From the NCBI GenBank assembly GCA_003695675.1, contig RFIA01000209.1, forward strand, positions 1 through 39,414: DNA of 39,414 nt. The letters are read 5' to 3'. This document shows, piece by piece, positions 27,797 through 38,393 of the stretch (the stretch's first letter is position 1; each line of letters opens with the position of its first letter). The notes below the pieces were generated by a model. It did no database searches, was not told the DNA's origin, and saw nothing but the letters and a program-made list of their open reading frames with translations. This DNA is from Chloroflexota bacterium. GTDB lineage: Bacteria; Chloroflexota; Anaerolineae; Aggregatilineales; Phototrophicaceae. The position numbers and the translations under genes are program-made.

Positions 27797-28096
27797 GTGA
27801 CTATATCTGTAACCCTCAATCAATTTCTGACCCTCTATACGTGGTTCGTAGCGACAATCTTGTTATTTTTTTTGATTCTTATTGCGCGGTACTATCAGCG
27901 ATTCGCAGGCGAACGCACATATTTTCGCTGGTTCATCGTGCCGATTGTGTTGTTCACCGGCGCGGCGGTGCGCTATGCAAGTATTGATCGTATTGCTGGG
28001 GATAGTGTAGGGGACATACTGATTGCGGTCAGTGGCTTGTTTGTGGGGGTTGGCGCTGTGTATTTGTATCGGGTGATGACAGTCGGACGTGAATAA
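27797..28096 (+). CDS. small membrane protein, unknown
   Basis: 99 residues with three predicted membrane helices (about 9-27, 44-60 and 74-93) and short charged loops (ARYYQRFAGERTYFR, YASIDRIAGD). No motif I recognise. It starts with GTG 15 bases after the winged-helix stop. No strong ribosome site is visible, which suggests coupling. The next gene is another three-helix protein of similar size. The low sequence complexity of such small membrane proteins limits any inference beyond topology. Confidence 0.6.
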   Translation: MTISVTLNQFLTLYTWFVATILLFFLILIARYYQRFAGERTYFRWFIVPIVLFTGAAVRYASIDRIAGDSVGDILIAVSGLFVGVGAVYLYRVMTVGRE

Positions 28097-31612: not shown

Positions 31613-32431
31613 TCACGCGGGTTGACAGTGGGGGCAAAAATGCGTCCCCCGTTGCCCGACCCGAATCTTCTCAATCATCGTCCCACATACGAGACAGGGT
31701 TGCCCTTCGCGCCCGTAAACATGAAAGTGATGCTGCGAGTCGCCTTGTGTGCCGTCCGGCTTGCGATACCAATTGATAGTCGCCCCTTCATATTCAATCC
31801 CGTTGTACAAAACCGTGCGAATAGCTTCATACAATGTAGCGATTTCGTCATCGCTCAGTGCATCGGCGCGTTTTTGCGGGTGTATCTTGGCTAGGTGCAG
31901 CGCTTCGTCGGCATAAATATTCCCAACACCGGCGATGAATGCTTGGTCAAGCAATAACGACTTGATGACTCTTTTGCGTCCATTGATGCGTTCTCTGAAG
32001 ACACCGAGTGTAAAAGCGTCATCGAGTGGTTCAGGGCCGAGTTTTGCGGTGAAGGCGTCGATGTCGTCGGTCAAATAAACCCGCCCGAATTTGCGAGCCT
32101 CAGAGAAGCGCAACTGCCTGTCGCCACTGAGCAATAAATACAAGTGCAGCCATTTGTCCGCGTCGAATGTTTCCCTGAGTTGCGCCACATACAAACGACC
32201 GGTCATGCGCAGATGTACGACCAGTATATCATGAGTGAGCTGAATCAGAATGTATTTTGCCCGGCGATTGACGGCTTCAATGCGTTGTCCTTGCAACCGC
32301 ACACCGAATTCATACGGGTCGATGCCTTCGATGATCTTCGGCCAATCCGTCCACACGCCTTGCACAATGCGCCCGATGAGCGGTTCTCGTAGGCCGCGCA
32401 CTACCGTCTCAACTTCAGGTAATTCCGGCAT
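31613..32431 (-). CDS. mutM: formamidopyrimidine-DNA glycosylase
   Basis: Base-excision repair enzyme that removes oxidised purines such as 8-oxoguanine and cleaves the abasic site. The N-terminus PELPEVETVVRGL carries the catalytic Pro and Glu. The helix-two-turn-helix region includes LLLDQAFIAGVGNIYADEALHLAKIHP. The C-terminal zinc finger has CLVCG and CPHCQ. Length of 272 is standard. The initiator Met leaves Pro as the catalytic residue. The start lies next to an AT-rich intergenic region with a strong palindrome at 32514-32535. The downstream gene is the unknown membrane protein. Confidence 0.97.
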   Translation of the reverse strand: MPELPEVETVVRGLREPLIGRIVQGVWTDWPKIIEGIDPYEFGVRLQGQRIEAVNRRAKYILIQLTHDILVVHLRMTGRLYVAQLRETFDADKWLHLYLLLSGDRQLRFSEARKFGRVYLTDDIDAFTAKLGPEPLDDAFTLGVFRERINGRKRVIKSLLLDQAFIAGVGNIYADEALHLAKIHPQKRADALSDDEIATLYEAIRTVLYNGIEYEGATINWYRKPDGTQGDSQHHFHVYGREGQPCLVCGTMIEKIRVGQRGTHFCPHCQPA

Positions 32432-32504
32432 AAGTTCATTTTAATGCAAGTTGAAGCGAAAAGGATGATGAGTTCGTTAGGAAATTGTTGTAATGTGTTG
32501 TCAG

Positions 32505-32535
32505 AAAAAATCAATCGCTATGTAATTATAGCGAT
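32505..32535 (-). terminator. hairpin with T-run, terminator or mutM operator
   Basis: ATCGCTAT (32514-32521) and ATAGCGAT (32528-32535) are a perfect 8-bp inverted repeat with a 6-base loop. On the minus strand a run of six T (32510-32505) follows. The minus strand of the same palindrome also reads TATAAT (32530-32525), about 95 bases before mutM. It can therefore be a terminator of upstream minus-strand transcription or a promoter/operator of mutM. Confidence 0.45.
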
Positions 32536-32823
32536 GTGATGGGGCGCGACAGCGAAATGCGGCAAAGCTCGAATATCATGATGCGATGAAATCAGGGCGC
32601 TGTCGACGAATGGGCACAATGCTCGGATTAGATGATGATAACAATGTCAGGGCGCGTCGATGTTATGCTGCGATGCTCGGCTATAATGAGTACGTTGATG
32701 TAAGGGCACAACCATGTAATGCGTCAATGCTCGATTAGTGTACAGTGTGTGTTGATGTAATGTGTACAACGATGTAGTGCGATCATGCTCAACGCTCAAT
32801 GAGAGTGTGATGTAACTGTGTAT
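32513..32823. repeat. degenerate 54-bp tandem repeat array
   Basis: The word GCTC recurs at 32567, 32621, 32675, 32729, 32787 and 32824, that is at spacings of 54, 54, 54, 58 and 37. Units share GCTCG at the start, (C/A)AGGGC in the middle and ATGC....AAT at the end. Between the units at 32621 and 32675 I count 34 of 54 identical bases. A partial, more diverged unit begins at 32513. No neighbouring gene explains it. Confidence 0.7.
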
Positions 32824-32841
32824 GCTCTTAACATAAATCCA

Positions 32842-32900
32842 GTTTGCTTGGCAAACAATTAAGAAATTGATACACGCACGCGATGTTACAACATTGTAAC
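32842..32900. repeat. two short palindromes, operator-like
   Basis: GTTTGC-TTG-GCAAAC (32842-32856) and GTTACAA-CA-TTGTAAC (32885-32900) are perfect inverted repeats 28 bases apart, upstream of the small ORF at 33053. They look like protein-binding sites, but no cognate regulator is identified. Confidence 0.4.
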
Positions 32901-33052
32901 GAATTTATGAATTATTTGTGAAGAATCGTTCTGTGCCCGTTCGCATATTGAACGCACACGGTGGAACGCAACGATTCCCACCTATTTTCGTATAGGTTTT
33001 TAGCCGCAGTTTTGGACGTAAACGAACAGTAGCAACAATATAGGATAAGTGA

Positions 33053-33247
33053 ATGAATACCCTTATTGATTCGATTGAATATTATTTTCAACAGGCCGTG
33101 CGTTGTTGTTTGGCTTGTGCTTGCATCTTGCCAACTGACGATGCCTATGATGAGAAACCCAAGCGCAAACCTAAGCGAACAGAGGATGATACATATCACG
33201 ACCCTGTTCGCTTGAGGGAATTGTTAGACGCTGACGACCAGAGCTAA
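33053..33247 (+). CDS. small hypothetical protein (64 residues)
   Basis: Possible gene. The N-terminal half is hydrophobic and cysteine-containing (YYFQQAVRCCLACACILP). The C-terminal half is strongly charged and basic then acidic (DEKPKRKPKRTEDD). AGGATAAGTGA precedes the ATG, a plausible ribosome site. It is not clearly related to any neighbour and lies convergent with the helix-hairpin-helix gene. Coding status is uncertain because of its length. Confidence 0.4.
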   Translation: MNTLIDSIEYYFQQAVRCCLACACILPTDDAYDEKPKRKPKRTEDDTYHDPVRLRELLDADDQS

Positions 33248-33270
33248 AACAAACACAAAGCGAAAACGAT

Positions 33271-34362
33271 CTAATCGAAAGTCACCAATCCATCCAATTG
33301 GTCGATCAAATTTTGGCCGATGCCATTGACCGCCGTCAGCGACTCGAGATCGCTAAAACGACCGTGTTCTTCGCGATGGGCGATGATACGTTTGGCAAGC
33401 GCTGGGCCGATTCCCGGCAAGGTCGTCAACGCATCGGCGTTGGCGGTGTTGACATTGATGGTCGGCTGTGAGGGTTGTTCAAGCACCGCGGACTCGGTCG
33501 GGGCTTCGCTTTCTTCGCTCTCAGCAGCTTCGGGCTGCGAGAAAATCGCTTGTCGGTCTGGGGTGGTTTCTTTGCTCGCGATTTCTTCCGGCGCTTCGAC
33601 CGCAATCGTGGCGGTATCATCGCCAAGAAAGCGCGTGCTATTGTCTTCCGAAATGTTATTTTCAATCGTCGCGCTGTGGCTCAATGGATCGAATGCTTCC
33701 GGCGGCGGCATCATATCGTCGGCGGTTTGTGATGTGCGACCGGCAATATTGCCAACCCGGGTTGTCGCGTCGCCGACGATACGACTGAGAGACTGCCAAG
33801 CATCTTTGAAGCCTTGATTGACTTGATTGCCCGCATCATCGAGCAGACTGCCGATGCGACTACCTGTTTTGCTGAGCGTTTGTTTGAGTCCGCGACTACT
33901 TGTGTCAAATGTCTGCTGCCACGCAGCGACATCCTGCGATGAGATCGGTGGGCCGTCTGTTCTTGACTTCACCGTGTCGTACCAAACAATTTGCAAATAG
34001 GCGCGTATCCGCTTCAACCATGATTGTGATTCGACCGCTTCATCGAAGCCCGTCTTCAAGAGCCGCCCAATGATAAGCGCGACAACCATGACGACGGCAT
34101 ATACGAGCAGCAAGCCATCGCGGATGAGCAGAACGAGAACAACAATCGGCCATGTCATCGTGATAGCTAAGCTGCGGACATGCCACTTTTGCGCTGTGAA
34201 TTCTGCCAAAAGCGGGATGCCAAAATCGTTGACGAGATCAACGATCAATTGTTCCAATTGATAGACGATGTAATATAAAATTGTGCCTAGCATCATGTAA
34301 AATTGGACGAGAATCGTACCAAATTTACGCGATGTTGTGGGGGGTGTGCCGGGTTGTTCCAT
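33271..34362 (-). CDS. membrane protein with C-terminal ComEA-like helix-hairpin-helix domain
   Basis: The C-terminal ~65 residues (INVNTANADALTTLPGIGPALAKRIIAHREEHGRFSDLESLTAVNGIGQNLI) are a clear double helix-hairpin-helix DNA-binding unit of the ComEA type. The N-terminal ~150 residues are membrane-associated, with hydrophobic helices at about 10-40 and 60-95. The ~150-residue linker is polar and rich in Ser, Ala, Glu and Gln. ComEA itself is a short protein with one N-terminal anchor, so this is a different architecture. It may hold DNA at the membrane. I set the start at the ATG at 34362, with AGAGGTG 8 bases upstream. The in-frame start at 34380 overlaps that site. Function unknown. Confidence 0.75.
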   Translation of the reverse strand: MEQPGTPPTTSRKFGTILVQFYMMLGTILYYIVYQLEQLIVDLVNDFGIPLLAEFTAQKWHVRSLAITMTWPIVVLVLLIRDGLLLVYAVVMVVALIIGRLLKTGFDEAVESQSWLKRIRAYLQIVWYDTVKSRTDGPPISSQDVAAWQQTFDTSSRGLKQTLSKTGSRIGSLLDDAGNQVNQGFKDAWQSLSRIVGDATTRVGNIAGRTSQTADDMMPPPEAFDPLSHSATIENNISEDNSTRFLGDDTATIAVEAPEEIASKETTPDRQAIFSQPEAAESEESEAPTESAVLEQPSQPTINVNTANADALTTLPGIGPALAKRIIAHREEHGRFSDLESLTAVNGIGQNLIDQLDGLVTFD

Positions 34363-34398
34363 GACTGCAACACCTCTCATTTCTTAAGATTTTCTTCT

Positions 34399-34427
34399 AT
34401 TGTATGCGTTCCGATGTCAGTGGTCAA
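34399..34427 (-). promoter_or_regulatory. promoter, helix-hairpin-helix gene
   Basis: The minus strand reads TTGACC (34427-34422), a 17-base spacer and TACAAT (34404-34399), a near-consensus sigma-70-type promoter 36 bases before the gene start. Confidence 0.6.
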
Positions 34428-34461
34428 ATCTGAAACTGTGCCCTGCAACGTCTCGCAGAGA

Positions 34462-34470
34462 TGATATAAT
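34462..34470 (+). promoter_or_regulatory. extended -10 promoter, dnaE
   Basis: TGATATAAT, an extended -10, 53 bases upstream of dnaE. It is divergent from the promoter at 34399-34427, about 35 bases apart. Confidence 0.55.
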
Positions 34471-34523
34471 GGGTGTGTTGTTGTTCATCTGTTCGAGAAT
34501 CCACGGGCAATTGAATTGAATTT

Positions 34524-37500
34524 ATGAGTGATAAATCGTTTGTGCATTTGCACGTCCACACCGAATATTCGTTGTTGGACGGCTTGAGTCGCATCCCGAA
34601 ATTGGTCAAACGGGCGAAAGCGTTGGAGATGCCCGCGTTGGCAATTACCGATCATGGGACGATGTTCGGTGTGATTGACTTCTACCGCGCGTGTAAAGCC
34701 GAAGGCATCAAACCGATCATTGGCGTCGAGGCCTATCTCGCGCCGCGTGGTATGGAAGATCGAGACCCGAATTTTGACAAACGACCTTATCACATGCTGC
34801 TTCTCGCCCGCAATCAAACCGGGTATCGCAATCTGCTCAAGTTGTCGAGCGAAGCGCAGCTCAAGGGATATTATTATCGCCCGCGTGTTGACCGTGACTT
34901 TCTCGCCGCACACGCCGAAGGGTTGATCGCGACGAGTGGTTGTCTCGCGGCACAGATTCCCTCAATGGTGATGGAAGGCCGCGACGACAAAGCGCGAGAG
35001 CTTGTCGGCTGGTATGTCGATGTGTTCGGCGAAGAAAATTTCTTCCTCGAATTGCAGCAACACGACATTCCCGAACTCGAAACCGTCAATCAATGGCTCG
35101 TTGACTATCGCAAATCGCACCACACCAATGTGCAGTTGTTGGCGACGAATGATGTCCATTATGTGTTGCAGAGCGATGCCGACGCGCACGATACGCTGTT
35201 GTGCATTCAAACCGGCGCCTTGAAGTCCGAGACGAATCGCTTGGCGATGTCCGACCCGTCGTATTATCTCACGTCGCAAGACGAGATGTGGAGCTACTTC
35301 CACGAAGTGCCGGAGGCGATGCACAACACGCTCAAAATCGCCGAGATGTGCGACGTGAATCTCGAATCGAAAGAATATCATCTGCCGGTGTTCCCGGTGC
35401 CGCAAGGTTATGATGCCGCATCGTATTTGCGCCATTTGTGTGAGAAGGGCTTGCGGTGGCGCTTCGGCGACCGCGCTGATGATGCTGAGATTCGCCAACG
35501 GCTCGACCACGAACTCAATATTATTCACACGATGGGTTTTGACACCTATTTCTTGATCGTGTGGGATTTATGTGAATACGCTCGCAAGTCCGATATATGG
35601 TGGAATGTGCGCGGGTCGGGCGCGGGCAGTCTCGCGGCCTACAGTCTCGGTATCACGAATATCGACCCACTCAAGAATAATCTGATTTTTGAGCGCTTCC
35701 TCAATCCCGGTCGTGTCAGTATGCCGGACATCGACCTCGATTACCCGGATGACCAACGCGAGCAAATGATTGCGTATACGGCGCGGAAGTATGGCGAGGA
35801 CAAAGTCGCGGCGATTATCACATTTGGGACGATGGGGGCGAAGGCGGCTGTCCGCGATGTCGGGCGGGCGTTGGATGTCGAACTCAGCAAAGTCAATCGC
35901 GCCGCGAGTCTGATCCCGACTGAGGCCAAGCAAAAGCCCGTCATGACGTATGTCGAAAGCAATCCTGAATTGCACGCGATGTATAAACAGGATGACCAAA
36001 TTAGACAGATTGTGGACACGGCCAAAGAATTGCAAGGGGTCAGTCGGCACGCTTCGACTCATGCGGCGGGTGTCATCGTCGCCGACAAAGCGCTGACGGA
36101 GTATCTCCCCTTGCATCGCTTGACGCGCGGCAACGATGCAGAAAGCGCCATCAAAGCCGTGACGCAATTCCCGATGGAAACTTGCGAGTCGATTGGTCTG
36201 CTCAAAATCGACTTCCTTGGCCTCTCAACGCTGACGATTATGCGCAAGGCGTGCGAACTCATCGAACGGCATCACGGCATTCGCTTCAACATGGGTAATA
36301 TTCCCTATCGTCATGATGATTTGACCGACCCGGATGAGCTTCGCAAGCTCGACGAAACATTTGCGCTCATCGGGCGTGGCGAGACGGTCGGCGTGTTTCA
36401 GGTCGAAAGCACGGGGATGCAACAGATGCTACGCGGGATGCGTCCGAAACAATTTGAGAACATCGTCGCCGCGATTTCGCTGTACCGTCCCGGCCCGATG
36501 GAATATATCCCGTTGTATAACCGGCGTTTGCACGGCGAGGAAGAGGTGGTTTATAAACATGATGGTTTGATACCTATTCTCGAAGAGACATACGGCATTA
36601 TTATATATCAAGAGCAAATAATGCAAATCGCTAGACAGTTGTTTGGCTATGAATTGGGTGAAGGCGATTTGATGCGGAAAGCTGTCTCGAAGAAACGTGA
36701 AAAGGATTTGCTCAAACACAAAGCCATATTCAAAGAACGTGGTCCTGAGCACGGCGTTGATGTTGAATCCGCAGAGAAAATATTTAACGACATAGAGTTT
36801 TTTGCTAATTACGGATTTAATAAGGCGCACGCATCTGACTACGCCGTCATCACGGTGCAGACGGCCTACCTCAAGACACACTATCCGCATGAGTATATGG
36901 CGGCTTTGCTGACGGTGCATCGCGATGATGTCGCCAAGGTGGCGACTTTTCTCGAAGAAGCCAACCGCTTGAATATCCCGATTTTGCCACCCGACGCGAA
37001 TCACAGTATGCTTGACTTTGATATTCAACAGCTTGATGATGGGCGGCGCGGGATTCGATTTGGCTTGGCGGCGATTAAAAACGCCGGTGTCGCGCCTTTG
37101 ATGCACATCATCGAGAAGCGCGAGGAAGGTGGCCCCTTCACGAGCCTGACGGATTTTTGCCAACGGGTCGATTTGCGCGTTGTGCAAAAGCGGGCGCTAG
37201 AGAGTCTCATCAAAGTCGGGGCGTTGCGGGCGCTCGGCAATCGGGTGCAATTGTTGAGCGCGCTCGACCGGATGATTAAGTTCAGCGCCGAATATCATCA
37301 TGCGCAAGAAGTCGGGCAGATGAGTTTGTTCGGCGAAGCTGAGGAAGTCGGCGATGAAATTTTGCAAAACCTCCCGGAAACGGACGATGTGAATGAACGC
37401 ACGCAGCTCGGCTGGGAGAAGGAATTGCTCGGTATTTACGTGACCGATCATCCGTTAGACGCGGCGATGCGCACTATGCCGCCGATTGACGGTCTCGTGA

Positions 37501-38393
37501 AATCGTATCAACTCAAAGATGAGAGCGAAATTTGGCACGACCGTCAAGTCAAGATGTTGGGCTTAATCAACAGCGTTCGTTCCTTCCCAACCCGCAATGA
37601 CGAATGGATGGGCGTGCTTCAGTTTGAAGATCGCGTGGGTTCGATTGAGGTCGTGCTCTTCCCGCGCACATGGCGGCGCTACAAAGACAAGATTGTTGAA
37701 GACACCATCGTGATGGTCAAAGGCAAGGCCGATGCGTCTCGCGGCGATATGCAAATCATCTGTGAAGAAGTCGTCACCGATTTGGCCGTTTTGCAGGCCG
37801 ATTCCGCTGTAGCGTTTGAAGAGGAGCCGCCACCTGCGTGGACGGACGACGATGAGCCACCGCCGTGGGTGTATGAAGAAGCCTTCTACGATGAAGAAAC
37901 CGGCGAGGTCATACAAGGAGATGCGACGTCACAAGCCGCTGAAGAGACGAACGGAATCGCACCCGCGACGCAAGGCGCCGTTGCCGAGCCGACCCCGGCG
38001 GTTGAACCGTCACCCGTGCCGACAACTGCATCGCCTGCGACAACAGCTAGCGATGTGCATTGGCTTGATGATGACGGTGACGCGGCGCTCCCGGAGCAAT
38101 ATCCTTATGATGACGAGACCGAGCACACGACAGAACCGTGCTGGTTGATGGTCTATTTTCAACGCTCAGGTGATGACGAGCGCGACCGACGTCGTCTGCG
38201 CAAGCTGCACGGCATTTTGACATCCTATCCGGGCAAAGATCGTTTTGCCATCGTCGTTGAAGGGCAAGACAAACCGTCATTGAAGGTGGATTTTCCCAAC
38301 CATCGCACCTCGTATTGCGAAGCACTGCTCCACGATTTGAACAGTGTGATCGGGATGCAAAATGTCGAAGTGCATCCGATGACGACATCCTGA
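34524..38393 (+). CDS. dnaE: DNA polymerase III subunit alpha
   Basis: Replicative polymerase. An N-terminal PHP domain begins FVHLHVHTEYSLLDG and keeps ITDHGTMFG, GVEAYLAP, SGCLAAQ and TNDVHY, so it may retain metal-dependent proofreading. The polymerase palm has RGSGAGSLAAYSLG and the catalytic PDIDLDYPDDQRE (around 400-412). KHDGLIPILEETYGIIIYQEQIMQI, YGFNKAHASDYAV and the helix-hairpin-helix region follow. An OB-fold (about 1005-1080) precedes a low-complexity acidic, proline- and alanine-rich linker (about 1093-1205). A C-terminal domain (CWLMVYFQRSG onward) probably binds the clamp loader. Total 1289 residues, at the long end of the family because of the linker. A ~300-base segment inside the gene (36541-36840) has unusual base composition; see the finding. 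Confidence 0.98.
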   Translation: MSDKSFVHLHVHTEYSLLDGLSRIPKLVKRAKALEMPALAITDHGTMFGVIDFYRACKAEGIKPIIGVEAYLAPRGMEDRDPNFDKRPYHMLLLARNQTGYRNLLKLSSEAQLKGYYYRPRVDRDFLAAHAEGLIATSGCLAAQIPSMVMEGRDDKARELVGWYVDVFGEENFFLELQQHDIPELETVNQWLVDYRKSHHTNVQLLATNDVHYVLQSDADAHDTLLCIQTGALKSETNRLAMSDPSYYLTSQDEMWSYFHEVPEAMHNTLKIAEMCDVNLESKEYHLPVFPVPQGYDAASYLRHLCEKGLRWRFGDRADDAEIRQRLDHELNIIHTMGFDTYFLIVWDLCEYARKSDIWWNVRGSGAGSLAAYSLGITNIDPLKNNLIFERFLNPGRVSMPDIDLDYPDDQREQMIAYTARKYGEDKVAAIITFGTMGAKAAVRDVGRALDVELSKVNRAASLIPTEAKQKPVMTYVESNPELHAMYKQDDQIRQIVDTAKELQGVSRHASTHAAGVIVADKALTEYLPLHRLTRGNDAESAIKAVTQFPMETCESIGLLKIDFLGLSTLTIMRKACELIERHHGIRFNMGNIPYRHDDLTDPDELRKLDETFALIGRGETVGVFQVESTGMQQMLRGMRPKQFENIVAAISLYRPGPMEYIPLYNRRLHGEEEVVYKHDGLIPILEETYGIIIYQEQIMQIARQLFGYELGEGDLMRKAVSKKREKDLLKHKAIFKERGPEHGVDVESAEKIFNDIEFFANYGFNKAHASDYAVITVQTAYLKTHYPHEYMAALLTVHRDDVAKVATFLEEANRLNIPILPPDANHSMLDFDIQQLDDGRRGIRFGLAAIKNAGVAPLMHIIEKREEGGPFTSLTDFCQRVDLRVVQKRALESLIKVGALRALGNRVQLLSALDRMIKFSAEYHHAQEVGQMSLFGEAEEVGDEILQNLPETDDVNERTQLGWEKELLGIYVTDHPLDAAMRTMPPIDGLVKSYQLKDESEIWHDRQVKMLGLINSVRSFPTRNDEWMGVLQFEDRVGSIEVVLFPRTWRRYKDKIVEDTIVMVKGKADASRGDMQIICEEVVTDLAVLQADSAVAFEEEPPPAWTDDDEPPPWVYEEAFYDEETGEVIQGDATSQAAEETNGIAPATQGAVAEPTPAVEPSPVPTTASPATTASDVHWLDDDGDAALPEQYPYDDETEHTTEPCWLMVYFQRSGDDERDRRRLRKLHGILTSYPGKDRFAIVVEGQDKPSLKVDFPNHRTSYCEALLHDLNSVIGMQNVEVHPMTTS
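36541..36840 (+). other. AT-rich mosaic patch within dnaE
   Basis: By hand count 118 of 300 bases are G or C (39%), against 36 of 60 just before and 34 of 60 just after. Codons such as ATA, AGA, TTT and TTA that are rare in the rest of the gene cluster here. The protein sequence of the patch remains fully conserved and in frame. Confidence 0.75.

Follow-up and report, generated by a model that had tools for sequence, protein, structure and literature searches.

The mutM–dnaE spacer and the array

The window analysed here, a stretch of 39,414 nucleotides from the genome of a Chloroflexota bacterium, carries about five to six degenerate 54-bp units arranged head to tail in the spacer between mutM and a small ORF of 64 amino acids (Table 1). 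The word GCTC marks the units at positions 32567, 32621, 32675, 32729 and 32787, which bears out the spacing of 54, 54, 54 and 58 bases described in an earlier inspection of the letters by themselves (the sequence-only reading). The consensus of five units is GCTCG..Tat.AtGa.ta..t..ATGtaaGGGc.CgaCgAtGtAaTGCg.CaAT, with capitals for bases found in at least four of the five, and within the unit the blocks GCTCG, GATGTAAGGGC and ATGTAATGCG are separated by other bases. The edge element listed in Table 1 might be a weak terminator-like hairpin or a palindrome; it does not exceed chance, with one found and 0.9 expected from shuffles.

Table 1. Features of the spacer between mutM and dnaE, with positions in the window
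Feature	Position	Strand	Remarks
mutM, formamidopyrimidine-DNA glycosylase	31613–32431	−	Pfam PF01149, PF06831, PF06827
Tandem array	32513–32827		
Unit 0	32513–32566		Most degenerate unit; overlaps the 8-bp palindrome; match to repeat profile R1 with E 4e-6
Possible hairpin or palindrome, array edge facing mutM	32514–32535	−	8-bp stem and 6-nt loop, then TGATTTTTT
Unit 1	32567–32620		54 bp
Unit 2	32621–32674		54 bp
Unit 3	32675–32728		54 bp
Unit 4	32729–32786		58 bp, with inserted bases
Partial unit 5	32787–32827		Lacks the middle part of the repeat
64-aa ORF	33053–33247	+	Flanks the array; no convincing relatives
369-aa protein	33271–34380	−	HHH_3 (helix-hairpin-helix, ComEA-like) C-terminus

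In many relatives a hydrolase-like gene is followed by a gene for a 375-aa protein, by mutM and, on the opposite strand, by dnaE. In at least 17 of them mutM is directly divergent from dnaE, at a distance that is mostly 79–541 bp and in a few cases up to about 1.2 kb. The divergent mutM/dnaE pair (31613–38393 in the window), two DNA-maintenance genes conserved in many Anaerolineae relatives, is here split by about 2.1 kb, with dnaE starting at 34524. The additional DNA contains the array, the 64-aa ORF and the 369-aa HHH_3 protein, for which no full-length relative was found among the 36 relatives searched. As the spacers of the relatives are short by comparison, the array is part of a lineage-specific expansion of the spacer. 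The 64-aa ORF, which may or may not be a real gene, encodes several cysteines and a KPKRKPKR stretch; it has weak partial matches in two relatives and no match to a Pfam or PHROGs family.

Periodicity and similarity of the units

When positions 32513–32835 are compared with themselves at a shift of 54, the identity is 0.431, while 1000 dinucleotide shuffles of the region averaged 0.257 (sd 0.028) and did not exceed 0.364 at this shift, and the best value reached by a shuffle over any period from 9 to 129 was 0.40. The shuffle test that the sequence-only reading had called for thus places the periodicity above all of the shuffles and not at chance level, and the array consists of head-to-tail copies of one unit. 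By autocorrelation against shuffles, the 54-bp signal is the strongest periodicity in the whole window. Tandem Repeats Finder did not report the array, which is to be expected because the units are so diverged, and degenerate tandem arrays missed by this program can be detected through autocorrelation. A 112-bp periodicity near 27950 was also looked at more closely and yielded no repeat family.

Similarity between adjacent units drops steadily towards mutM, from 42/54 in the last pair (counted without the bases inserted in the 58-bp unit) through 34/54 and 28/54 to 18/54 in the pair nearest to mutM, the latter three values being ungapped. The value of 34/54, between the units at 32621 and 32675, is the one that had been reported for two units at the outset. 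Units further apart are less similar than neighbouring ones, and in a gapped alignment the partial unit 5 agrees with unit 3 at 33 of 37 aligned positions and with unit 4 at 32 of 36. Such a gradient would be expected if units had been added step by step at one end and had then decayed. A CRISPR array was considered and rejected, as the similarity is distributed over the 54-bp unit and weakens from unit to unit; near-identical repeats with unique spacers were not found. Despite an ungapped divergence of the units of 37–67%, the spacing is exactly 54 three times in a row, and some parts of the unit agree slightly better than others (permutation p about 0.035–0.04, post hoc); the fixed spacing and the uneven agreement could both reflect some constraint on the array.

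Coding capacity and RNA structure

The sequence-only reading had offered two interpretations of the repeat, a decaying gene for a repeat protein or a structured non-coding array. The first would make the array the remnant of a gene whose protein had an 18-residue repeat, which is consistent with a unit length divisible by three, with a plus-strand frame that is open from 32529 to 32735, and with mismatches between units that are somewhat commoner at third codon positions (14, 12 and 20 at the three positions). This last excess, 20/35 differences at third positions in the plus frame against 26/72 elsewhere, is weak and concerns one of three frames. The frame does stay open over about four units up to the stop at 32736, as had been stated, but its length is what chance would provide: an open stretch of 68 codons was reached in 77% of first-order simulated sequences, and the length of the 50-aa ORF was matched in 36% of shuffles. 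The codon log-odds of this ORF are −0.24 per codon, compared with 0.34 (sd 0.15) for genes in the window, while off-frame sequence scores −0.66 (sd 0.27). Another 50-aa ORF of equal length lies on the opposite strand, and neither of the two has a Pfam or PHROGs match. With all six frames read, the array contains no open frame with codon usage beyond chance, and the frame for which an 18-residue pattern had been claimed is, by BLOSUM scores, the one that repeats least well of the six. The array is therefore very unlikely indeed to be a decayed protein gene: the open frame is of chance length, its codons are not used as in a coding sequence, and the searches for a related protein gave nothing.

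Read as a structured regulatory RNA composed of repeated modules, the second interpretation agrees with the position of the array between genes, its repetition and its lack of a coding signal, but the fold of neither strand is more stable than those of its shuffled versions (z of +0.46 and +1.35) and no Rfam family matches, either at the gathering threshold or at E values of up to 1. Of a structured non-coding array, the non-coding part thus holds and the structured part is not borne out, and we regard an RNA of this type as very unlikely.

Occurrence in the genome and in relatives

A profile, R1, was built from the five fuller units and searched against the 4.7-Mb genome. By construction it recovers its own five units, at E 1e-10 to 7e-6, and beyond these just one weak match (E 0.04, at C274:33972), from which it follows that the array is real and present as a single copy. 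The weak match, around which no array was found, was taken as chance, and short blastn matches within the same genome, among them an exact one of 20 bp at C150:4161, were likewise treated as probable chance hits. The genome search for more 54-bp units that the sequence-only reading had proposed thus gave no further unit beyond the one weak profile match. A sample of about 229 kb of the same genome, including the window, showed no other equally strong non-coding long-period array among the matches listed, a weak negative because four short masked contigs filled most of that list.

By blastn, the array is absent from 97 genomes of the same family and 24 further genomes of the same order, all of them family- and order-level relatives and none of the same genus. 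The closest relative has a MutM with 67% identity, and the nearest named ones, Anaerolineae/Chloroflexi metagenome genomes, reach up to 64%. DNA homologous to the array was found neither in its own genome nor in 60 relatives, phages and plasmids gave no blastn match, and an exact motif scan of viral contigs gave none either. A search of the literature turned up no account of such an array in Chloroflexota.

Possible binding sites

A further explanation is that the units are direct-repeat sites, iteron-like or in the manner of an operator array, for a DNA-binding protein that controls mutM and/or the small plus-strand ORF. Two GATGTAA-like sites with a spacing of about 17 bp would be available in each unit, with GATGTAA itself at 32697, 32754 and 32809 and ATGTAATG at 32714 and 32755, and mutM and the 64-aa ORF both have the array in the spacer upstream of them. 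Words of the ATGTAA type occur on one strand and on the other strand of the region not at all. Together with the uneven conservation and the retained 54-bp phase, this strand specificity would be compatible with the units serving as direct-repeat binding sites. Against this, the unevenness of conservation is marginal, the candidate sites degrade towards mutM, the genome holds no other copy, the matching spacers of relatives have no such array and no replication-initiator gene was seen adjoining it. Iterons at plasmid origins are likewise direct repeats in register, but they are usually about 17–22 bp long, well conserved and found next to AT-rich DNA and a rep gene, whereas the array has a degraded 54-bp unit on a chromosome, with mutM, the 64-aa ORF and the HHH_3 protein as its neighbours. 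A binding-site array is on this evidence unlikely. A more specific version, in which a lineage-specific array of phased putative protein-binding sites coordinates mutM with its neighbours and enough constraint acts to keep the 54-bp phase despite drift of the sequence, is distinctly improbable. If the array does bind a regulator, the lineage would have in it a control region of its own for a DNA-repair gene; otherwise the array matters little beyond annotation.

Origin of the array

The array is probably an old and decaying non-coding minisatellite that is specific to its lineage. Several rounds of tandem duplication, probably through replication slippage or unequal recombination, would have multiplied a piece of about 54 bp in the spacer that separates mutM from its divergent neighbour, and divergence of the copies would have followed. 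Copying was presumably stepwise, which would explain why neighbouring units are the most alike, and the units nearest to mutM would be the oldest or the least homogenised and those near 32730–32830 the youngest. No product would be made from such an array, which would have no function. Bacterial intergenic minisatellites, known as VNTR or MLVA loci, share several traits with it: they lie in spacers, consist of tandem units some tens of base pairs long, are lineage-specific and show the greatest similarity between adjacent units. Typical MLVA loci have nearly identical units in variable number, in contrast to the 33–79% identity of adjacent units here.

Among the other relatives examined, no comparable array was found upstream of mutM, with the exception of an unrelated and fresh minisatellite in a member of the same taxonomic family (G031). 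There, ten copies of an 18-bp unit with 93% matches lie directly upstream of mutM at a contig end (L032:2330–2511). This repeat resembles the array in being tandem and upstream of mutM and differs from it in unit length, in the similarity of its copies and in its sequence. It demonstrates that tandem repeats can arise upstream of mutM, and the mutM upstream spacer in these Chloroflexota can thus gain them. Part of the 18-bp unit recurs elsewhere in the same genome (G031:C13:51721). Two other relatives have repetitive DNA upstream of mutM: in one (G022, L018), two 33-bp copies (94%) are located 134 to 68 bases upstream, and in the other (G030, L025), a repetitive coding region that looks rich in Thr and Pro, with periods of 12–36 bp, extends from about 430 to 160 bases upstream.
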